DNA of 50,607 bases from Myxococcota bacterium. Lineage in GTDB: Bacteria; Myxococcota_A; Polyangia; Polyangiales; Houyiibacteriaceae. This document shows positions 28,512 to 45,916 of the stretch, piece by piece. The first letter of the stretch is position 1; each line of letters opens with the position of its first letter. A program made the position numbers and the translations under genes. The notes under the pieces are model-generated. The model saw nothing but the letters and a program-made list of their open reading frames with translations, ran no database searches and had not been told where the DNA came from. Location: NCBI GenBank assembly GCA_028284955.1, contig JANQQS010000006.1:1-50607 (forward strand), written 5' to 3'.

Positions 28512-30836
28512 GTGGACCACGAAGACCTCGTATACGAAGCGCGGCAGCCCGAACAACAGGAACGGAGCGTCCTGCACGAGCAGGCTGAGCGATGCAATCA
28601 GGTCGCGTACGAACGGGTAGATCGAATTCAGCCGCACGGGTTCTTCTTCGGGCTGCATCCCGACACGCTCAGAGTTTCGCACGTGAGCGCCAATGTAGTT
28701 CAGCTGCTGGCCCGCGATCCTCGGAGCTGTATCGACACGCGACTAACGGACTGGATCGAAGAAAGCGAAGTACCGCGGCTCAAGAATCTGCTCGGCCATG
28801 GCCACGACTGGAATCGCGTCCCCCAGGTGTTCGGCCAACTGGTATGGAACGCGTCGCTGGGAATGAACCCGACGAGCTTTCTTGCATTTCGTTCCGCCGA
28901 TCTTTTGTGTCTCGAATGCGATGATTCAAACAACGGCTTTCGCGCCGCCGATTTGGTTGCACGAGAACACCGAATCTCCGCGGACCTTACCCGAACGCCG
29001 CTCAACATCGACGACCTATCGATGACGATCGCGGAGGGGATTCGTGACCTCAGTCAGTTCGACCGCGCCTACGTGCTCCGCTTCGACGATGGCGACCATG
29101 GTTTCGTGTGCGGAGAATCCAACAACGGAATCCTGCCCAGTCTCTTGCACCACCATTTTCCATCCAGCGATATCCCTAAAATAGTAAGGTCTCTCTATTT
29201 GGAATCGCGATTTCGGATGATTCCCCGAGTGGACTACGAGCCGATCCCAATTCTTGGCTCCCACGCTGCGGACTCACCGCTCGATCTCACGTACTCAGTG
29301 TTGAGAGAAACCGCCAAGTCGCATAGCGTGTATCTTCGCAACATGGGGGTGAACGCGACCGCTTCGTTTTCCGTTGTCATCTCAGGAAAGCTCTGGGGTT
29401 TGGTCGGCGTTCATTCGAAGGATGCGCAAAGCATGGCATTCGAACAGTTAGCGATGTGTCAAAACGTCGTGGAGTTGTTTTCTCGTCACATCGCGTGGGC
29501 CCGAGAAGAGAAGCAACGACGTCATCAAGAGCGGACGCTCGCCAGCGTGTCCAACGCATTGAGCATATCGTCGTCATACTTGATCGGCGGCGACCCAGGC
29601 CATTTGTCAGCCGATGAGCTCCAAGGCACCATGCTGAATTTGGTCGATGCGGACGGGTTCGCCGTCTACTCCCTTCAAGCGCCCATCATGTTCCAGGAGC
29701 AGCTCGGAGAGTTCGCGGGGACGGTGCTCGCACATGTGATCCGCACGCAGCTGGAGAGCCAGCACTCGTTCGTGACGACATCGCTTGGACGATACGATCC
29801 GTCGCTCTCGGAAGTCGCGTCCAAGATCAGCGGAGTTCTCGTCTTGCCTTTCGACGACTGTCTCATGGTTTGGGTACGTCGAGAACAAATTCGGAATCAA
29901 GTATGGGCGGGTAATCCGGACGGTCACCGCGCCGAAAACGACGAAGGTATGCTTGGCCCGAGAACGTCGTTCGAAAGCTGGCAGCAACTAGTTCGGGGCA
30001 CATCGCAACCGTGGCGGCGTGGAGAACTGAGAGCGGCAACGATGTTTCGGGATGCTTTGCTGGTCCAACAGAAACGGTTGCTCGCAGACCAAGCACGGCG
30101 GCAGAGCGAAGAAGCAAATCGCGCGAAAACGATTTTTCTCGCCAACATGAGCCATGAGCTAAGGACGCCGATTCACGCCATCATTAACTTCGCCCGGCAA
30201 GGGCTCGAAGACTTGCGACGCAGCGCGCATGGCGATCTCGAAGAACACTACACCGACATTCGACGAAGCGGTGATCGCCTGCTGTTGTTGGTGAACGATT
30301 TGTTGGAGCTCGGCCGACTCCAATCGGGCAAGGTTGAACTCGATCTCGAGCCGCATTCGATCACCACCGTGATCGAAGAGTCTTGGAAAGAGCTTCGCAG
30401 CAAAGCTCAGGAAAAGCAGATTCAGCTCACGCGTACGTTCGACGTCGACGAGCCGCTCATGGTGGACCGAAAACGGATGGTGCAGGTCGTGGTGAACCTG
30501 CTGTCCAACGCGATCAAATTCGCAGACGAGCGAACCTCGATTGAGGTCGCCGTGAGACGCACGATTCGAGACGAACGTCGGGGGGTACTGGTTTCCATCG
30601 AAGATGAGGGACCGGGCATCAACCCCCAAGATCTTGAGAAAATTTTTGGCAAGTTTTACCAAAGCAGTCGTACTCAGCGTTCCGAGGGCACGGGCCTTGG
30701 GCTCGCAATCTCTCGGGAAATCGTGAGTGCTCACGGTGGCACGATCTGGGCAGAAAACCGCTCCAAGCGAGGCGCAAAACTGTGCTTCGAGATTCCTTGT
30801 CGCGAACACGGTACCCCCGAAGCCAAGGAGAACTAA
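28512..30836 (+). CDS. bphP: Bacteriophytochrome sensor histidine kinase
   Basis: 774 residues from GTG 28512. The order is PAS-2 (about 20-130), GAF (about 145-320), PHY (about 330-515), HisKA and HATPase. Cys28, in E-R-C-N-Q before I-Q-P-H-G, sits where bacteriophytochromes bind biliverdin. The GAF keeps S-S-D-I-P, YLRNMGV and the following H-S, and the PHY tongue keeps P-R-T-S-F-E. The kinase has FLANMSHELRTPIHAI, with the phosphorylated His, and the N/G boxes. It should sense red/far-red light and phosphorylate a partner, most likely the next gene product. No heme oxygenase is nearby. Confidence 0.93.
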   Translation: MDHEDLVYEARQPEQQERSVLHEQAERCNQVAYERVDRIQPHGFFFGLHPDTLRVSHVSANVVQLLARDPRSCIDTRLTDWIEESEVPRLKNLLGHGHDWNRVPQVFGQLVWNASLGMNPTSFLAFRSADLLCLECDDSNNGFRAADLVAREHRISADLTRTPLNIDDLSMTIAEGIRDLSQFDRAYVLRFDDGDHGFVCGESNNGILPSLLHHHFPSSDIPKIVRSLYLESRFRMIPRVDYEPIPILGSHAADSPLDLTYSVLRETAKSHSVYLRNMGVNATASFSVVISGKLWGLVGVHSKDAQSMAFEQLAMCQNVVELFSRHIAWAREEKQRRHQERTLASVSNALSISSSYLIGGDPGHLSADELQGTMLNLVDADGFAVYSLQAPIMFQEQLGEFAGTVLAHVIRTQLESQHSFVTTSLGRYDPSLSEVASKISGVLVLPFDDCLMVWVRREQIRNQVWAGNPDGHRAENDEGMLGPRTSFESWQQLVRGTSQPWRRGELRAATMFRDALLVQQKRLLADQARRQSEEANRAKTIFLANMSHELRTPIHAIINFARQGLEDLRRSAHGDLEEHYTDIRRSGDRLLLLVNDLLELGRLQSGKVELDLEPHSITTVIEESWKELRSKAQEKQIQLTRTFDVDEPLMVDRKRMVQVVVNLLSNAIKFADERTSIEVAVRRTIRDERRGVLVSIEDEGPGINPQDLEKIFGKFYQSSRTQRSEGTGLGLAISREIVSAHGGTIWAENRSKRGAKLCFEIPCREHGTPEAKEN

Positions 30837-30838
30837 AC

Positions 30839-31744
30839 ATGCGTGCGTTGCTGGTAGATGATGATGAGTTGAACCTGAAGATTCTTCGTCGAGATCTACA
30901 GCGTGAAGGCCACAACGTAGCCTGCGCAGAAAACGGCGTTCAGGCGCTCGAGCTTCTGGAGAAGGATAAACGCTTCGACGTCATTCTTCTCGATCGGATG
31001 ATGCCTGAGATGGATGGCATGCAGGTTCTCGAACAACTGCGTGCAGACAGTGTGCTCAGCCATATTCCAGTGGTCATGCAAACCGCGGCGGCTGCGAGCG
31101 ACCAGGTTCGTGAGGGGATTGAAGCCGGCGTATTCTACTACCTTACAAAACCCTTCGAGAAAGGGTTGATGCTCGCGGTGGTTTCTCGCGCCGTGCAACA
31201 TGCCGAGCAGCTGCGAAAAGTCGATCGAAAAGCTGACGAGTATCGAGACCACGCGAAACAGCTCAGGGACGGTATCTCCCTCTTCGAACACTGTGCGCTC
31301 TCGTTCCGAACGCTTTCCGAAGCTCGAAAAGCGGCGTTCGCGGTCGCGCAATGTTTTCCCGATCCGTCGCGGGTGGCGTACGGCATTCACGAGCTCATGC
31401 TCAACGCGGTCGAGCACGGAAATCTTGAGATTAAGTATCAGGAAAAAACGAAGCTGATTCTATCAGGAAAGTGGCAAGAAGAAATCGAGCGCCGCCTCGG
31501 GCACGCTGACTACGAAACAAGAATCGCGGCCGCAGAGTACTATCGGCGAGGCTCAACGCACGAACTCGTCATCCGAGACGAAGGCAACGGGTTCGACTTC
31601 GAAAGCTTTCTCGAACTCTCCCCCAATCGAGCCGCCGATCCCAACGGGCGAGGCATCTTCTCCGCGCGGACCATCAGCTTTGACGAGCTTGAATACCAAG
31701 GATGCGGCAACCAGGTGGTATGCCGGGTGAACTTGACCTCCTGA
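30839..31744 (+). CDS. Response regulator: receiver domain plus RsbW-like ATPase domain
   Basis: 301 residues from ATG 30839, two bases after the phytochrome stop; a longer frame from 30782 overlaps the kinase. Residues 1-120 are a receiver (D-D-D at 7-9, phospho-acceptor Asp52 in ILLDRMMPEMDG, Lys in Y-L-T-K-P-F). Residues about 160-300 resemble a GHKL ATPase of the anti-sigma-factor type, with an N box (HELMLNAVEHGN) and a G box (IRDEGNGFDF). There is no DNA-binding domain, so output is probably by protein phosphorylation or partner switching. Its pairing with the phytochrome as a light-sensing two-component system is well supported by position. Confidence 0.88.
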   Translation: MRALLVDDDELNLKILRRDLQREGHNVACAENGVQALELLEKDKRFDVILLDRMMPEMDGMQVLEQLRADSVLSHIPVVMQTAAAASDQVREGIEAGVFYYLTKPFEKGLMLAVVSRAVQHAEQLRKVDRKADEYRDHAKQLRDGISLFEHCALSFRTLSEARKAAFAVAQCFPDPSRVAYGIHELMLNAVEHGNLEIKYQEKTKLILSGKWQEEIERRLGHADYETRIAAAEYYRRGSTHELVIRDEGNGFDFESFLELSPNRAADPNGRGIFSARTISFDELEYQGCGNQVVCRVNLTS

Positions 31745-31759
31745 GCGAAACAGCCGGGT

Positions 31760-33202
31760 CTAAGCGATCCTGGATGCGAATCTCAGCTGCTTGCTGCCAA
31801 TCCCAGGCTGCATGCCGCTATACGACACTGGGCGCACGTCGCATTCGGTAGCTCCGAGCTCGGAGCCCAATAGGGCTTCGATGGCATTGGATACGCTCAG
31901 CGCGTCTTGGCAATTCGCATCAGGGACCCAGTCAATGAAGAGTTTTTCCGCCCGCTGATGTACGCGGTAACGAAGCAGCGGGAAAGGTTCGAGAAGTCGC
32001 GCCAATTCTCGAGATTCGGTAGTGCGGCCACCAAGCTGGAAGGCGCGGCATTCTTTGCCGAAGAGCTCGGTGATGGTTTGACCCTCAAAACCGCAATCGC
32101 AGCGAGTCCGAACCACGGTGGCCCAATCACCGGTTCGATAGTTCACCAGCGGAACGCAACGGTTCGCAGGGTTCGTCACCAGTAGTTCGCCGGTTCCTTC
32201 ATCCCTTGCAACCCCATCTCGACCGAGCACCTGAAGATGCACGGTGTGCGGCATGACGTGGTGCCCTCGCTTGAACGAGCATTCGGTCGCGATCAGCCCG
32301 CATTCAGTCGAACGATATTCGCTGTACACAGGACAACGAAACCATTCTTCTAGATACTCACGTTCGTCATCGTGCAGATTTTCCCCGCCCACCAAAATAA
32401 TAGTCGGCCGAATCGTTGTCGGGTCGGGGGGAATCAACGCGTCTATCTCTGACAGATACCGAAGCACGCTCGGCTTTCCTGACAGAATCGGCACAGGCTC
32501 TGTTCGAAGAAATTGCACGAGCGTTCGGTCGCATAGCGGGCTGCGACCCAATCGACGACCTCGAAGCAAGGAGAGATTCATGCCCGGAAGAAATAGACTT
32601 TCTTCTTTCCAGTGGAGGTAGTTCTGCACGTGCACTACGCCCGTCTTCCCAGGACGCAGCTGAGATGCGATGCGTCGTTCGCTCGACGACCATCGCTCGT
32701 ATCCGTAAAGATCGAATCCATACCAAGAGACCGCGTCTCGAGGAATTCTTATCGATTTGCGATTCGTCGTTCCCCCCGTGAATCGATGCTGCACCTGCGC
32801 ATTTCGCAGGTTTTCCGAATGCATCCGAGTGCCTTCGCGCACCAAGTCGTCGCGAGACAGGAGAGGAAAATCAGAAAGATCGGGAGTGTTTGAAAGGGTC
32901 TTCAGCGAATCTCGATAGTACGGAACCGTGCTCGCGGCATAGCCAAGAAACTCTTCCAAGGCGTCTCGCTGAGCCAGCCGAGCCATCTGCTCATGCCAAC
33001 CGCGATATCCTTCGAGCGCGATGGCAAGCAGGTGAACGAGTTTCACCCTCGATGTATCGGATGGGAGAGGCAATGGGCCCAGCATGTCGTGATCCGAATC
33101 GCCTGTCGCAATCCTATTCATTGAGGTGCTCTGCTCCATCGAGAGACACAGCTTTACCAAAAGACACAGTGGCACGACATGGCCAGCGCACGCCGGCCAC
33201 AT
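31760..33202 (-). CDS. PaaK/CapK-like adenylate-forming enzyme, paralog 1
   Basis: Up to 480 residues. Features of the phenylacetate-CoA ligase/CapK branch of ANL enzymes: phosphate loop F-T-G-G-T-T-N-R-K-S, Y-R-S-T-E-C-G, E-G-T-G-E-L-L-V-T-N, N-Y-R-T-G-D, and C-D-C-G-F-E-G before the C-terminal lobe. These enzymes activate a carboxylate with ATP; the substrate here is unknown. The start is uncertain: ATG 33202 lies 12 bp after the peptide gene stop, but alignment with paralog 2 suggests Met28 (33121) or Met40 (33085). It is the second gene of a peptide-ligase pair and ends 16 bp from the convergent response regulator. Confidence 0.8.
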   Translation of the reverse strand: MWPACAGHVVPLCLLVKLCLSMEQSTSMNRIATGDSDHDMLGPLPLPSDTSRVKLVHLLAIALEGYRGWHEQMARLAQRDALEEFLGYAASTVPYYRDSLKTLSNTPDLSDFPLLSRDDLVREGTRMHSENLRNAQVQHRFTGGTTNRKSIRIPRDAVSWYGFDLYGYERWSSSERRIASQLRPGKTGVVHVQNYLHWKEESLFLPGMNLSLLRGRRLGRSPLCDRTLVQFLRTEPVPILSGKPSVLRYLSEIDALIPPDPTTIRPTIILVGGENLHDDEREYLEEWFRCPVYSEYRSTECGLIATECSFKRGHHVMPHTVHLQVLGRDGVARDEGTGELLVTNPANRCVPLVNYRTGDWATVVRTRCDCGFEGQTITELFGKECRAFQLGGRTTESRELARLLEPFPLLRYRVHQRAEKLFIDWVPDANCQDALSVSNAIEALLGSELGATECDVRPVSYSGMQPGIGSKQLRFASRIA

Positions 33203-33214
33203 CGCACCATCCAG

Positions 33215-33394
33215 TTATGCGGTTGTGCCTGAAATTGGGCTCAGTCCGGCGTTTGACAACCCGCCGTTCAACGCGCGCATCTCGCTCTCACTCAGCTCCG
33301 ACCGTAGATGCTCGAGAAGGAGCTCCGCCCGACGAATGCCATCGTGATGCGTACCCTCGGTTTTGCTGGAAACGTCTCTCTTTTTTGAAAACAC
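33215..33394 (-). CDS. Candidate Gly-Gly-leader peptide upstream of PaaK-like paralog 1
   Basis: A 59-residue frame starting at GTG 33394, with AGGAAGGA about seven bases upstream. It starts M-F-S-K-K-R, continues as a charged helix (A-E-L-L-L-E-H-L-R) and ends its leader with LSESEMRALNGG (Gly44-Gly45). The tail is LSNAGLSPISGTTA, with no Cys. The leader end matches L-[SR]-x-[ST]-E-[ML]-[RK]-[AS]-[LV]-x-G-G in the 54-residue peptide at 45752-45916, which also precedes a PaaK-like gene. The ligase frame opens 12 bp later, suggesting coupling. Precursor status is inference; the leader pattern is that of double-glycine peptides cut by C39 peptidases. Confidence 0.65.
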   Translation of the reverse strand: MFSKKRDVSSKTEGTHHDGIRRAELLLEHLRSELSESEMRALNGGLSNAGLSPISGTTA

Positions 33395-33538
33395 GTATTC
33401 TTCCTTCCTGACGCCAGATGCCTATAGCTCGGCGTCTCGCCATGGGAACCATCGTCGATGCTGCCTTGCAAGGGAGGCATCATCTTCCAACAAAAAGAAC
33501 CGATATAAACCACCGACGCTGTTCAAACTACAGGCGCT

Positions 33539-34642
33539 ATGAAACGCGACGCGGATATTGCCGAAACGCGAGAAACGAGGCAGTCTCTTTCCGTGCCTGA
33601 GCGAGCAAGTACACCAAGCGATGTTCCCTCGTTACTGACTGAGCTTCAAACCCGTCTTGTCCGGCTAAGCCCAAAGCTTCAGCGAGCTGCCCGGTTTGTT
33701 TTGTCGCAGCCAGAAACCGTCGCCGTAAAATCAATGCGAAAGATTGCCGAAGACTCCGATGTCCACCCCACTACGATGCTCCGCTTCGCACGAACCCTCG
33801 GTTTTTCGCGATACGAAGAGTTTCGCGAACTATTCCGCGCTCACTTTGCGCACACTCCACCTGAGCGTCTTCGAATCTCGGACGAACCAACGGTCGTGCA
33901 CCACGGCGTGCTCGACGCAAATCATGTGCATCGAATTGCGGATCGCGTTCGCGGGCTAGCCAGCCCCGACATGTGGACGCGGATTCAGACAACGGTGTCG
34001 CGAATCCAAGCGAGCCGCCGAACGTTCGTGGTGGGGAGTCGTGGCGGTTTTCCGGCCGCGTTTACGCTTTGGCAGATGACGCGAGTCTTCGGAGAGAAGA
34101 TTCGTCTCATTCGTGACCTCGCCAGCGCCACCGACGACGAACTTTCGGAACTTTCTGCCGACGATCTTCTCGTTGTCGTCGATGTGTTTCCTCGAGGGAA
34201 GTTCGTTGAATCGGTCGTGGACCACGCAGTCGGAGCAGGCTGCGCAGCGATTGCGATCACCGATAGCGCGCACTCTCCACTCAGCACGATGGCACGGTCA
34301 CGACCGCTCATCACCGCATTCGAAATTGAGGGCTCGATCGCTCCTCATGCCGTCGATTTTGCCACCGCCACCGCGTTCGTTCAGCTCGTAGCGCAATGCT
34401 GGCTGGCACAACATGGCGAACGGGTGCTGGCGCGCGTCGGAACGCAAACGCCTCGCCGTTCGGAACATCGGACAGATGCCGCCAAAGCCCAAACCACCGA
34501 CGCCATCAGCCGACAGTCTACCGAACAGCCATCTCGCGTAGCGCTTGAGGCAGAAAAAACCCTCGCCCATATTGAAGCTCAGCTTCGTACAGCAGGTGGC
34601 CCGCGGGAGCAGGCGCAGCCTCAGAGTTTTGCGATGTCATGA
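33539..34642 (+). CDS. RpiR/MurR-family transcriptional regulator
   Basis: 367 residues. The N-terminal RpiR helix-turn-helix (about 30-110) has L-S-P-K-L-Q-R-A-A-R-F-V-L and D-V-H-P-T-T-M-L-R-F-A-R-T-L-G-F-S-R-Y-E-E-F. The SIS sugar-phosphate-binding domain (about 140-290) has T-F-V-V-G-S-R-G-G-F and A-I-T-D-S-A-H-S-P-L. About 75 further residues, Arg/Gln/Thr-rich and apparently disordered, follow the SIS domain. The gene is divergent from the peptide-ligase pair (about 145 bp) and 33 bp before PaaK-like paralog 2, so it may regulate both. Its ligand is unknown. Confidence 0.85.
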   Translation: MKRDADIAETRETRQSLSVPERASTPSDVPSLLTELQTRLVRLSPKLQRAARFVLSQPETVAVKSMRKIAEDSDVHPTTMLRFARTLGFSRYEEFRELFRAHFAHTPPERLRISDEPTVVHHGVLDANHVHRIADRVRGLASPDMWTRIQTTVSRIQASRRTFVVGSRGGFPAAFTLWQMTRVFGEKIRLIRDLASATDDELSELSADDLLVVVDVFPRGKFVESVVDHAVGAGCAAIAITDSAHSPLSTMARSRPLITAFEIEGSIAPHAVDFATATAFVQLVAQCWLAQHGERVLARVGTQTPRRSEHRTDAAKAQTTDAISRQSTEQPSRVALEAEKTLAHIEAQLRTAGGPREQAQPQSFAMS

Positions 34643-34675: not shown

Positions 34676-36007
34676 ATGATCTCTGATTCGCTTCCGCTCG
34701 ATACCCCGCCCGCGAAACTCGCCCACGACCTGAGAATCGCAATCGACGGCGCTCGATGCTGGCACGAGCGATGTGCTCAGCTCGCCCAGCCGGGCGCACT
34801 CGACCGGTTTCTCGCCCGCGCAGCCCGAACTGTTCCCTTCTACCGCGCTGAGATCGCGCCGAACAACAGCACAAAGGGATTTACTCTCAAAGATTTTCCG
34901 CCGATCGATCGCAGCCACCTCGAACATCACAGCAGCGCGTTTATTTCTGAAGATCCGTCGACACCTTGTGTGCAGCGTCGGCGGACCGGAGGGACCACCC
35001 GACCCGCTCTCGAAGTGCATCGCGACGCTGGGGGATGGCATGCGTCCGATCCGCTTATGTACGAATGGATCGCGTCTCGCTACGAAACAGTCCGTCGCGA
35101 GCTGAGCGACGGTGATTTGCTCGCGGTGCACGCTCACAACTATCTCTACTGGCGCAACGAATCGGTCATACATGCCAACTTACATCAAGCGCATGTGCGC
35201 ATCCGAAGAATCGGTCGCAGCCCACGAGCCGACCGAGCGCTCATCGCGGAGCTGATGCAACTTAGGATCCCCGTGCTCTCTGCCAAACCGAGTTGCCTAC
35301 GAAACATCATCCAGCTCAGCGAGCTCATCGGCGATGGCCAAGTTCGGGTATCCCCAACGCTCGTGGCATGCGGCGGGGAGACTCTCTACGAAGACGAACG
35401 CACCGCGCTCGAACAGTCATTCGGCTGTCCCGTGGGGAACTTCTATTTGTCCGCCGAAGCAGGCTTTCTCGCTGGCGAATGCCCGTACCGGGAGGGCTTG
35501 CATCTGGTTCCACACGTCGCACGCGTCTTGGTGCGCCGCCCAGATGGTGAACTTTGCGAAGAAGGCACAGGTGAGCTCGTCATCACGAATCTCGCCAACT
35601 GGCATACGGTGCTGATCAACTACCGAACTGGCGATCATGTTCGCCTCGAACACGTTTCGTGCCCCTGCGGCTATTCCGGCCCCACGATTCGCGAATTGCC
35701 AGGCCGAGAACCGATAGCATTTCCAACTTCGAGCGGTTGCGTCTCGACTCAGGATTTGTCCGCAATCGTATCCGAGTTCCCGGTAGCACATCATCAAATT
35801 ACAAAACGCAGCGATGGTTCGTACGCTTTTCGATGGGCCGCTGATGCTGAATGCGCAAACTTGGTCGATGTCGCGCGACTACTCGAAAAAGCCCTGAGGG
35901 CCAAGCTCGGTGCGTACGAGACTCTGCACATGGAATACGTCAGCTACGGAGACTTTGTCGCCGCGCCCGGTGCGAAAATGTGGCGATACCGCATCGAGCC
36001 CCAGTAG
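34676..36007 (+). CDS. PaaK/CapK-like adenylate-forming enzyme, paralog 2
   Basis: 443 residues. Paralogous along its full length to the gene at 31760-33202: A-R-A-A-R-T-V-P-F-Y-R near residue 45, phosphate loop T-G-G-T-T at 104-108, A-C-G-G-E-T-L-Y-E-D-E-R, N-F-Y-L-S-A-E-A-G-F, N-Y-R-T-G-D and C-P-C-G-Y-S-G-P-T. Y-L-S-A-E-A-G replaces Y-R-S-T-E-C-G of paralog 1, so substrates may differ. It follows the RpiR gene by 33 bp and probably shares its transcript. No peptide gene of its own was found. Its 3' end overlaps the convergent APC permease by 64 bp. Confidence 0.82.
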   Translation: MISDSLPLDTPPAKLAHDLRIAIDGARCWHERCAQLAQPGALDRFLARAARTVPFYRAEIAPNNSTKGFTLKDFPPIDRSHLEHHSSAFISEDPSTPCVQRRRTGGTTRPALEVHRDAGGWHASDPLMYEWIASRYETVRRELSDGDLLAVHAHNYLYWRNESVIHANLHQAHVRIRRIGRSPRADRALIAELMQLRIPVLSAKPSCLRNIIQLSELIGDGQVRVSPTLVACGGETLYEDERTALEQSFGCPVGNFYLSAEAGFLAGECPYREGLHLVPHVARVLVRRPDGELCEEGTGELVITNLANWHTVLINYRTGDHVRLEHVSCPCGYSGPTIRELPGREPIAFPTSSGCVSTQDLSAIVSEFPVAHHQITKRSDGSYAFRWAADAECANLVDVARLLEKALRAKLGAYETLHMEYVSYGDFVAAPGAKMWRYRIEPQ

Positions 36008-37242
36008 ATAGCCGCTCCAAGCGCCAGAGCGATCCCTCCCGATGCGAGCTGCTGTCGGCTCGCCTGCGTGAGCAACAATAAACAAACGCACATTGCAATC
36101 ACCGATGCGGTACGAGCAAAGGGAATCGCCGCTGTCTCGTGACGCAGGAACGGAGGATGGCGACGAAATACCCATACCGAAAGGCACACCGGAACATACT
36201 GGGCGACGCGAGCGACGACGCTGATGATCGCAAGCTGTTTGAATGATGAGCTAAGCGCCAGCCCGATGGTCAACAGGGCCGTCACCGCGATCGACGCCGC
36301 CGGCGTTTTGTATACAGAATGAACTGCGCCGAGCTTCGCGGGAAGTTCACCGCGCTGAGCCATAGCGAAAAAGGCGCGTGGCACGACAACCGCCTGCCCC
36401 GCGGCATACCCGAACGTCGAAAGCATCACACATCCGGCAACGAATATGCCTCCCGTATCGCCGATCGCCACCGTCGCCGCATCGGATAGAGGGTTTTGGG
36501 AACCTGCAAGGCCCTCCCACATGCCCAGCGCTACGGCGTGCGTCGTAAGGTACAAGGCCGACACGATGGCCATGACCGAAAGCAGCGCGCGCGGTACTGC
36601 ACGCTGAGGCGATAGCACCTCGCCAGCTGGAATGACCAGAGACTCGAAGCCGACGAACATATAAAACGCAATCAGAACCGTCTCTCCAAAACCGCCCCAT
36701 CCGGACGGTGCCCACGGAACAAACCGCGACGAGCGCACAAACAGCAACCCTGCGCCAACGAATATTGCCAGCGTGACAATTTTTGCGGCACCAAACCATG
36801 TAGACACGCGAGCTCCCAGTTTGCTCCCGAGAATATTCACCCACGAAAGCCCACCCACCAGCACGGTGAGCACCCACGCATGCATCATCCCGTGGCCCAC
36901 CTGGGGCACGAAATAGGAAAGCGCCAACACAAACCCATTGGCGTTTGCGGCGAAGACCAACACGCGGGTCACGCACGTCATCCACCCCACCTCGAAACCC
37001 ACGAAACGACCAAACGCAGAACGCGCATACAAATAGGCACCACCGGTGTCTTCGAAATGGCGACTCACATCAGCGAACGAAATGGTCACGAAAAAAGCCA
37101 GCAGCCCCGCCGCGACGACCGCGACCAAAGAGGCCGGCCCCATGCGCTGAGCCAGTACCCCCGGCAAAAGAAAAATGCCCGAACCGATCACTCCATTGAC
37201 GCCGAGCGCGACGACGTCGGAGGACGATAGCCGTCTATCCAT
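35944..37242 (-). CDS. APC-superfamily amino acid permease
   Basis: About 432 residues from ATG 37242; the frame opens at 37431, but the extra 63 residues do not resemble the family. The N-terminus V-V-A-L-G-V-N-G-V-I-G-S-G-I-F-L-L-P-G is the APC first-helix glycine motif that unwinds to bind the amino group, and about 12 membrane helices follow. It probably imports an amino acid or related amine. It faces PaaK-like paralog 2 tail to tail with a 64-bp overlap. It may serve the peptide/ligase cluster or be unrelated. Confidence 0.88.
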   Translation of the reverse strand: MDRRLSSSDVVALGVNGVIGSGIFLLPGVLAQRMGPASLVAVVAAGLLAFFVTISFADVSRHFEDTGGAYLYARSAFGRFVGFEVGWMTCVTRVLVFAANANGFVLALSYFVPQVGHGMMHAWVLTVLVGGLSWVNILGSKLGARVSTWFGAAKIVTLAIFVGAGLLFVRSSRFVPWAPSGWGGFGETVLIAFYMFVGFESLVIPAGEVLSPQRAVPRALLSVMAIVSALYLTTHAVALGMWEGLAGSQNPLSDAATVAIGDTGGIFVAGCVMLSTFGYAAGQAVVVPRAFFAMAQRGELPAKLGAVHSVYKTPAASIAVTALLTIGLALSSSFKQLAIISVVARVAQYVPVCLSVWVFRRHPPFLRHETAAIPFARTASVIAMCVCLLLLTQASRQQLASGGIALALGAAIYWGSMRYRHIFAPGAATKSP

Positions 37243-37557
37243 TGTGGAGGAGCGCACGAAGGCGGGCACTATACGCACAACGCCAGCGCAGGCAAGGCCG
37301 GTCGCGTAAACCAGGCCTCCCATCGCCGCACTGACTTCGCACCTCATTCTAAGAATCGCAGAATCCATGCTGCAGAGCAGACTGAGCACAACTCGGGACA
37401 ACTTCCCGCGCTGTTGCACTGCTCTGCCCACAAAACGCCGCGTTTTCAGGCTCTACCTCCAAGGCACGAACCTTGCCCAAGAGAGCCGACAGAACCGAGA
37501 GAAGCGGGCTCATGCCTTGAACTCAGTGTGAACCCCGCGACCACTATGGAGGCAACT
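37243..37557. other. 315-bp divergent intergenic region
   Basis: Between the permease gene (minus) and the PDZ lipoprotein gene (plus). It should hold both promoters. Open frames extend through it on both strands as upstream extensions of the two genes, but neither extension looks like family sequence. No other structure was seen. Confidence 0.4.
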
Positions 37558-44307: not shown

Positions 44308-44357
44308 TTTCAAAAAACCTAAGCTTTCAAAAACCCTGAATTTTCAAAAACCCTGGA
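44308..44357. repeat. Three 17-bp repeats at the end of PaaK-like paralog 3
   Basis: TTTCAAAAAACCTAAG, TTTCAAAAACCCTGAA and TTTCAAAAACCCTGGA start at 44308, 44325 and 44342, an exact 17-bp period. The last two cover the codons of the ligase C-terminus (P-G-F-L-K-I-Q-G-F-stop) and the first lies in the 36-bp gap before the next gene. Probably slippage growth that moved the stop; a regulatory role is possible. Confidence 0.65.
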
Positions 44358-45721
44358 TCCTGAGCCGACATGAAGCGCCGTAGCTTTCCGGCTACAGAAG
44401 GAATCTCATCGAGCTCAATACACCGGACGCGAGCCGCGCCGAGCTGGCTTCGCAATACCGAGCCAAGCTGCTCGCCAATGCCCGAAACAAGCCCGTCTGA
44501 AACAGGCCCGTCTGGAACGAAACGTGCGTCAAACGATTCATCTTCGTATTGAACAACTTGATAATCGAGAAGCGGCAACGTACGCATCGCCCGCGCCAGG
44601 CTCTCGGTAGATACGAGACGGTCACCAACCCGAAAGTACCGCAGAGCACGACCCGTCAATCGAACCACGCTCTGACCAGAAAACCCGCACGGGCAGTCGA
44701 TGTTGCGAATCTCTCCCCAATCTCCAGTTCGGTAGCGAAGAATCGGCATCGCCCAGTTGGCAAGATTCGAGATCACTAGCTCGCCCTCGCCTTCTTCCTC
44801 TAGATCTTGGCTCGTCGGCGCTTCGCTTCCTGGCGCGACCCACGCGCGCACCGTCGGTGACACGTGAAATCCGTTTTTCTCGGGGCATTCGATCGCAATC
44901 AACCCGCCTTCGACAGACATGTACGCGCTCGTCACCGTGCATCGAAACCACGCTTCGAGGCGCTCGCGGTAGTCTAGAAAAAGCTCAGACCCAACGCACA
45001 GGATGGCCGCAGGCCGGATGCCGCGACAGGCGCCTTCGCGATAGGAGCCAGGCAGTGGACCCAGCGTTTGGTCGATCGCCATCAGACGCATCAAGTACCA
45101 AGGCTTTCCCACGAGCAGCGGAATCTTTTGCCCGCGCATCCATCGCACCACGTCTCGGTCCTGCTCACGACTCCGCTCGTGGCGAAACGGAATGCTCCGC
45201 AATATCGAGCCGCGACAACCCGGGAGCATATAGGATCGGTGCGCCCCTCCTGGTCGATCGTTGAGAAACACTGCGCCGGTTTTTCCCGCAGCCAGGAGCG
45301 CACGAATGTCGGGCCGTAGCTCCATAAACGCGTCGTACACCGCGTATCCACCGGAGTAGAAACCCCCGAGGTCGCTGTAGACCGTTACCGGGCGGCCGGT
45401 GGAGGAACTACTGCGTATCCCCAGCACCCATGCATCGTCCATGCCCGGCCCGGACGCCCGGAGCTTTTCGGCATCGGCGAGCGCAGAGCGATCGAGAAGC
45501 GGAAGGCGCTCCAGATGGCGAGGTGTCCACACGCGGGACACGGAAGGAAAGTACGCCGAATAGAACGCAGAGCGCATGGCGGCGAAACGAAGCAACTCGA
45601 GCTCGGCATGGCTTGCATCGCCACGCAACCGCTGCTGCATTTGCGTCGCGCCATGCACCGCAATGCGCAGATCTTCCTCTGCAAACTCTGGATCTTCGAG
45701 CTGAACTGTGTTCATCGCCAT
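44327..45721 (-). CDS. PaaK/CapK-like adenylate-forming enzyme, paralog 3
   Basis: 464 residues. Same fold and motif order as the two paralogs at 31760 and 34676: L-R-F-A-A-M-R-S-A-F-Y-S-A-Y-F, a changed phosphate loop S-S-S-S-T-G-R-P, L-L-V-G-K-P-W-Y-L-M, S-A-Y-M-S-V-E-G-G-L, E-G-E-G-E-L-V-I-S-N-L-A-N-W, R-Y-R-T-G-D-W and C-P-C-G-F-S-G-Q. ATP-dependent carboxylate activation is expected; the substrate is unknown. It starts 30 bp after the Gly-Gly peptide gene and is followed 36 bp later by the HESAH gene. The C-terminal codons lie in a 17-bp repeat. Confidence 0.82.
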   Translation of the reverse strand: MAMNTVQLEDPEFAEEDLRIAVHGATQMQQRLRGDASHAELELLRFAAMRSAFYSAYFPSVSRVWTPRHLERLPLLDRSALADAEKLRASGPGMDDAWVLGIRSSSSTGRPVTVYSDLGGFYSGGYAVYDAFMELRPDIRALLAAGKTGAVFLNDRPGGAHRSYMLPGCRGSILRSIPFRHERSREQDRDVVRWMRGQKIPLLVGKPWYLMRLMAIDQTLGPLPGSYREGACRGIRPAAILCVGSELFLDYRERLEAWFRCTVTSAYMSVEGGLIAIECPEKNGFHVSPTVRAWVAPGSEAPTSQDLEEEGEGELVISNLANWAMPILRYRTGDWGEIRNIDCPCGFSGQSVVRLTGRALRYFRVGDRLVSTESLARAMRTLPLLDYQVVQYEDESFDARFVPDGPVSDGLVSGIGEQLGSVLRSQLGAARVRCIELDEIPSVAGKLRRFMSAQDPGFLKIQGF

Positions 45722-45751: not shown

Positions 45752-45916
45752 CTATCCGGAGATTTCGTCGATCCGGGCAGGCATCGCCTCGCCACCAAGC
45801 ACCGATTTCAACTCAGTGGGCCGCAACGGCTGCCCCACGGTTTTTCGCAACTCATCGATGTCAGTTCGTTCGTGTTCGATGTTCTTGTTCTTTTTCTTCC
45901 GATCAAAAAACGTCAT
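45752..45916 (-). CDS. Candidate Gly-Gly-leader peptide upstream of PaaK-like paralog 3
   Basis: 54 residues from ATG 45916, with AGGAGA five bases upstream; the frame runs upstream to 46006, but that extension has no such signal. It starts M-T-F-F-D-R-K-K-K-N, has an acidic-basic middle and a leader end LRPTELKSVLGG (Gly41-Gly42) like that of the 33215-33394 peptide. The tail is EAMPARIDEISG: no Cys, one Ser. It is the first gene of a minus-strand operon with PaaK-like paralog 3 and the HESAH protein. Precursor status is inferred from size, leader and position; a small ligase partner protein is the main alternative. Confidence 0.68.
   Translation of the reverse strand: MTFFDRKKKNKNIEHERTDIDELRKTVGQPLRPTELKSVLGGEAMPARIDEISG

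Follow-up and report, generated by a model that had tools for sequence, protein, structure and literature searches.

A Gly-Gly leader peptide gene lies upstream of a PaaK-like ligase

We analyzed a stretch of 50,607 nucleotides (the window) from the genome of a Myxococcota bacterium. The genes and features that concern the present analysis are listed below.

31760-33202, minus strand: PaaK-like adenylating ligase 1 (coordinates of the longest frame; the start is more likely near 33139 or 33121)
33168-33212, minus strand: predicted strong hairpin (45 nt) between peptide 1 and ligase 1, a possible attenuator
33215-33394, minus strand: Gly-Gly leader precursor peptide gene 1 (GTG start, 59 amino acids)
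33218-33259, minus strand: 14-residue tail of peptide 1
33260-33394, minus strand: leader of peptide 1
33402-33409, minus strand: Shine-Dalgarno-like site AGGAAGGA, 7 nt 5′ of the peptide 1 GTG
33539-34642, plus strand: MurR/RpiR-family regulator (HTH_6 and SIS), divergent from peptide 1
34676-36007, plus strand: PaaK-like ligase 2, 39% identical to ligase 1
35944-37431, minus strand: amino-acid permease (APC family), convergent with ligase 2
44327-45721, minus strand: PaaK-like ligase 3, partner of peptide 2
45752-45916, minus strand: Gly-Gly leader peptide gene 2, MTFFDRKKKNKN...LRPTELKSVLGG EAMPARIDEISG

A sequence-only reading of this DNA had proposed the 59-codon GTG frame as an overlooked peptide gene with a Shine-Dalgarno-like site, and both the frame and the site are present as described. 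The leader of peptide 1 indeed ends in a double glycine (...LSESEMRALNGG), and the tail of 14 residues that follows (LSNAGLSPISGTTA) is free of Cys. The same reading had placed the peptide gene 12 bp before the ligase. This spacing holds for the longest ligase 1 frame, which begins 12 nt after the peptide 1 stop, but it rests on a doubtful start. The ATG at 33202 falls within the strong predicted hairpin, and homology to the paralogs starts further in. Thus, ligase 1 probably starts near 33139 or 33121, and the actual gap between the two genes would be about 75-95 nt. On its other side, ligase 1 is convergent with a phytochrome-type histidine kinase and, after it, a response regulator that carries a fused HATPase_c_2 domain (28512-31744).

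The peptide-ligase pair recurs at eleven loci of the genome

The genome of the window (6.07 Mb in 223 contigs, 96.6% complete, 0.65% contamination) encodes 12 ligases of the PaaK-like family to which the partner of peptide 1 belongs, three of them within the window. The sequence-only reading had advised a search for conserved short leader frames upstream of close ligase homologs. Inspecting the loci, with our own longest-frame gene calls where no annotation existed, we found a co-directional Gly-Gly leader frame just 5′ of 11 of the 12 same-genome paralogs. Searching with the single sequence of peptide 1 already gave matches next to two further ligases, at E 0.0017 and, weakly, at E 1.1. When the 11 leaders were combined into a profile and searched against the whole 6.07 Mb, all 11 were recovered at E ≤ 2e-14; the best other frame stood at E 0.09, and none reached E < 0.05. 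To avoid circularity, each peptide was also omitted in turn from the profile. Under this leave-one-out scheme, 10 of the 11 took the top rank in the 20,779 frames searched (E 3e-10 to 0.02), peptide 1 among them at E 5e-6, and peptide 2 was the weakest member at third rank. Since each of 11 homologous leader frames precedes a ligase paralog and peptide 1 is found at rank 1 without its own help, we take the peptide 1 frame as confirmed to be real, far beyond chance.

All 11 paralogous peptides have purine-rich ribosome sites 5′ of them, comparable to AGGAAGGA. Identity among the leaders at the first, second and third codon positions is 0.51, 0.58 and 0.35, values that point to constraint at the protein level. 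This inference is drawn from paralogs; the family is known from one genome only, so no ortholog test of constraint was possible. Co-divergence of ligases and leaders among the paralogs was weak and fell short of significance (Mantel r 0.24, p 0.10). The suggested pairing of peptide and PaaK-like ligase is nevertheless well supported by the sequences, and the observation is larger than first noted, the original pair being one of 11 peptide-ligase modules. At all 11 loci a precursor gene stands next to a putative tailoring enzyme in a conserved arrangement, which satisfies this criterion for a RiPP.

The stretch downstream of the peptide frames is also unusual. The 120 nt 3′ of the peptide 1 stop have a folding energy of -53 kcal/mol, in the top 4% of gene ends, and taken together, the 11 peptides show an unusually high hairpin-forming capacity 3′ of their stops (P 4e-4). 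Such hairpins fit what an attenuator between precursor and enzyme would show; the attenuator itself is only possible.

Ligase 2 is the sole paralog without an upstream peptide of its own. It sits behind the RpiR regulator, divergently from peptide 1, and peptide 1 may serve ligase 2 as well as ligase 1. We also noticed an orphan twelfth Gly-Gly leader frame elsewhere in the genome (L175 5722-5907, plus strand; G000:C164, near 14721), reading MSKNRSKEKELF...LSASSMGQMHGG RAAQAEVCIGTYSTTETG with AGAGGAGG upstream. This frame scores E 0.09 genome-wide and has no ligase nearby. A partner in trans might be ligase 2, which has no peptide of its own.

The leaders are of the double-glycine type and the tails are short

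The 11 leaders share the consensus AExLLxxLExxLSxEELRxxxGG and end in GG in 10 cases and in AG in one. They thus meet the double-glycine criterion, an amphipathic leader with conserved hydrophobic spacing that ends in Gly-Gly. The nearest known models are themselves double-glycine leaders (TIGR04149, lichenicidin A2 and cerein), all matched below cut-off. The TIGR04149 score is 18.1 bits, short of the 25-bit cut-off, and three of the 11 members match this model at E < 1. A PHROGs search gave no match. Automatic annotation models missed the precursor family because its members are short and no curated family was matched above cut-off. Like the known double-glycine RiPPs and bacteriocins of these families, the peptides have a helical leader ending LSxxEL....GG, and the genome encodes a C39 peptidase-ABC exporter. 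They differ from them in the sub-threshold TIGR04149 score, in their very short, Cys-poor tails and in their surroundings, as no rSAM, LanM or other known RiPP enzyme was recognized among the neighbors scanned.

The tails are 8-20 residues long, rich in Ala, Gly and Asp, and mostly without Cys and Lys. No conserved acceptor residue, including a common Lys or Cys, was found in the 11 tails. Every tail contains Ser or Thr, yet this is expected by chance (P 0.09). The C-terminal residue is Ala or Gly in 8 of 11 tails, compared with 13% of gene C-termini in the genome (P 1e-5; P 1e-4 against amino-acid composition). This bias was noticed post hoc.

The ligases have a predicted PaaK-type fold and invariant adenylation residues

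PaaK-family enzymes are usually annotated as CoA ligases, and such ATP-using ligases are not known to have peptides as substrates. Ligase 1 matches the PaaK/F390-synthetase-type adenylating families below all curated cut-offs, and its 13.1 bits against the PaaK equivalog TIGR02155 (cut-off 646) fail the criterion for PaaK proper. Its AlphaFold model (pLDDT 87.9) adopts a PaaK-type ANL fold and so meets the ANL criterion; the E1/ThiF fold of an MccB-like enzyme is not met. The best structural matches of the model are NatL2, BT_0428, PaaK, AjiA1 and ClxA, with a top Z of 28.5. Judged from this model only, which is an ANL enzyme of PaaK length, there is no obvious extra domain that could be an RRE-like leader-binding domain.

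The A5 residues Tyr269 and Glu273, the YRTGD motif and the C-terminal Lys444 are invariant in all 12 ligases. Adenylation chemistry is expected for this reason, and the adenylation-residue criterion is met; the competence of the ligases for adenylation is well supported, albeit from sequence and without biochemistry. Column 268 behaves differently. The residues found there across the 12 ligases are E, F, A, T, I, G, V, R, C and Q, a variability above that of 99% of columns. Through alignment of the A5 motif, we equate it with the acid-contacting Glu235 of NatL2 and Tyr218 of ClxA.

The ligases share with PaaK the fold, the length, YRTGD and the C-terminal GKxxR with the catalytic Lys. They differ from it in that ligase 1 lies far under every curated PaaK cut-off and that a Gly-Gly peptide stands upstream; no phenylacetate pathway genes were found near ligase 1. 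By fold, the ester- or amide-forming NatL2, AjiA1 and ClxA are relatives (Z up to 28.5 for NatL2 and AjiA1, 26.5 for ClxA), and the invariant Tyr and Asp of our ligases are the equivalents of their nucleotide-binding Tyr and Asp (PMC7204872, PMC12519233). However, identity to them is about 18%, and they use two small aryl acids and no peptide. Their catalytic Lys comes from the C-terminal extension of a partner subunit, whereas the C-terminus of the ligases here aligns through the catalytic Lys with PaaK and not with the CoA-blocking NatL2 arrangement. For this reason, plain CoA-ester formation is not excluded. NatL2 and ClxA, PaaK-family AMP ligases of benzoxazole pathways, use no CoA when they couple adenylated acids to hydroxyls or amines (PMC7204872, PMC12519233), and the condensation proposed for FevW/BagE likewise needs no CoA (PMC9221444). 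By analogy, these CoA-free condensations are a mechanistic precedent for what the ligases may do.

Regulators, symporters and a single exporter

LysR regulators adjoin 6 of the 11 modules, five of the six coming from one LysR subfamily, and four of the six SSF (Na+) symporters of the genome lie beside modules. The probability of this by chance is about 3e-10 for LysR and 6e-8 for the symporters, assuming roughly 5,300 genes and simple neighbor slots. The peptide 1/ligase 1 pair has an RpiR regulator. Comparing the neighbors, we found no other enzyme class common to the 11 modules.

Three more LysR genes of the module subfamily (L168 3112-4053, L169 7321-8319 and L170 943-1869) have no ligase or leader nearby; the one at L170 is 69% identical to the LysR of module L023. 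The two remaining SSF symporters also lack a nearby ligase, one being at a contig end. At L173 7896-9470 (G000:C16), a symporter that shares 48-51% identity with two module symporters stops 121 nt short of the contig end, so the sequence past it could contain another module.

The only C39 peptidase-ABC exporter of the genome is encoded away from the window.

L171 3642-9186 (G000:C97): C39 peptidase-ABC exporter, arranged like an operon with genes for HlyD and outer-membrane efflux (TolC-type) proteins

The C39-ABC protein has 768 amino acids and is flanked by the HlyD- and TolC-type genes. The presence of an exporter, as required for double-glycine peptides, is thus met; the operon is unlinked to any of the 11 modules.

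A RiPP-like pathway and its alternatives

On balance, and with no biochemistry at hand, we lean toward a RiPP-like role for the modules, in which the ligase of each module would adenylate an acid and couple it to the cognate Gly-Gly peptide, or would activate the peptide C-terminus, before leader removal and export. The small gene would encode the precursor, with its classical double-glycine leader, and the neighboring PaaK-family ligase would adenylate a carboxylic acid and bond it to the cognate peptide; alternatively, the activated acid would be the peptide's own C-terminus. Each module would probably use a different small molecule taken up from outside, because column 268 varies and LysR/RpiR regulators and Na+/amino-acid symporters stand beside most modules. 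The single C39 peptidase-ABC/HlyD/TolC exporter would then cut after Gly-Gly and secrete the tail. The sequence itself establishes the gene family, the pairing, the intact adenylation residues, the neighbors and the existence of the exporter. The peptide as ligase substrate, the bond formed, the use of the C39 exporter, the Gly-Gly cleavage and the secretion are all inferred.

A more specific version of this pathway is a new RiPP class whose defining enzyme, a PaaK-family ligase, would act on the Gly-Gly leader peptide directly, multiplied within one genome to eleven parallel pathways, each combining a different imported molecule with a different short peptide, and one common exporter. We offer it tentatively, as an idea that we doubt slightly more than we believe. 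The sequence-only reading knew of no described RiPP class of this type, and we found none in the open-access literature searched. If true, the products would be a set of encoded peptide-small-molecule conjugates. With a PaaK branch devoted to ribosomal peptides, RiPP biosynthesis would gain an enzyme class, one for the ATP-driven joining of acids to nucleophiles, and the eleven natural peptide-ligase pairs with differing acid-contact residues would be a ready specificity series.

The microcin C7 system also has a very short peptide gene, mccA, directly before the gene of an adenylating enzyme, MccB. MccB belongs to the ThiF/E1-like enzymes, and no Gly-Gly leader is present in MccA. In contrast, the ligase here has a predicted ANL (PaaK) fold, and the peptides carry a Gly-Gly leader. 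Microcin C7 is modified at the C-terminus of its peptide (PMC6495379). A ligase working in this manner would adenylate the C-terminal carboxylate of its own peptide and couple it to an amine, alcohol or nucleotide, giving a C-terminally capped peptide. The Ala/Gly tail ends, for all their post hoc origin, would suit such chemistry, as would the scarcity of Lys and Cys acceptors in the tails; imported amines could be the second substrate, an amino-acid permease lying in the window. However, paralogs with Ala-ending peptides differ at the acid-contact position, which fits different small acids better, and where ligands in PaaK-family pockets have been solved, they are small aryl acids (PMC7204872). 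We regard MccB-like capping as unlikely, though still a serious candidate. Between the two kinds of acid the matter is open: the variable acid-contact position, the regulators and the symporters favor imported small molecules, while the Ala/Gly ends favor C-terminal activation.

The ligases could also be ordinary CoA ligases that make acyl-CoA for metabolism or signaling, beside an independently exported peptide that serves unmodified as a bacteriocin or pheromone. A LysR regulator, a symporter and an acyl-CoA ligase are a common catabolic gene set, which counts for this explanation, as does the PaaK-like ligase C-terminus without a NatL2-type extension. It does not readily explain why one peptide per ligase is kept at eleven independent loci with no other common enzyme class, and 8-20-residue tails of small or acidic residues are unlike membrane-active bacteriocins. 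The one-peptide-per-ligase rule weakens the plain CoA ligase without excluding it, and we hold it to be rather improbable.

The short frame as a regulatory leader ORF, whose translation controls the ligase gene and whose product has no role of its own, draws on the strong hairpins 3′ of many frames. However, the paralogs have kept the leader amino acids and the Gly-Gly site, with a codon-position bias, and the leaders match known double-glycine peptide families; we give this reading very little credence. A chance frame next to a ligase, conceivable because short GTG frames are common in GC-rich DNA, is refuted by the profile searches, being ruled out by the recurrence at 11 loci and the leave-one-out rank 1 at E 5e-6.

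The peptide-ligase system appears restricted to one lineage

The peptide-ligase pair was not found in any other genome examined (the leader was sought in 379 phylum genomes, and the ligase in 184 order genomes and 379 phylum genomes; the search outside the phylum was not exhaustive). The leader profile gave three weak outside matches in the 379 phylum genomes (E 6e-5 to 4e-4). All three lie within longer frames of 182-360 codons and were rejected as chance. With a single peptide pattern, no leader frame appeared among the matches listed for 80 loci of the genome collection. Full-length C39 exporters were likewise absent from 24 other genomes of the same family, where the two weak C39 matches were not in a full-length exporter frame. 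From this comparison, exporter, peptides and ligases co-occur solely in the present genome within its family. A lineage-restricted system is the best reading of these results.

Homologous ligases without an upstream peptide would have refuted the sequence-only reading. Among close homologs this did not occur; the peptide is missing next to distant PaaK-like enzymes in other genomes. The ligase profile scored its best outsiders at 169 bits (184 order genomes) and 195 bits (379 phylum genomes), as against 547-613 bits for most of its own paralogs. The 195-bit ligase (L176) has no leader frame at its locus. This closest PaaK-like homolog outside the genome (L180, G353:C31:168000-184000) lies beside a frame that, judged by eye, is glycosyltransferase-like, hinting that the ligase family may derive from CapK-like polysaccharide enzymes.
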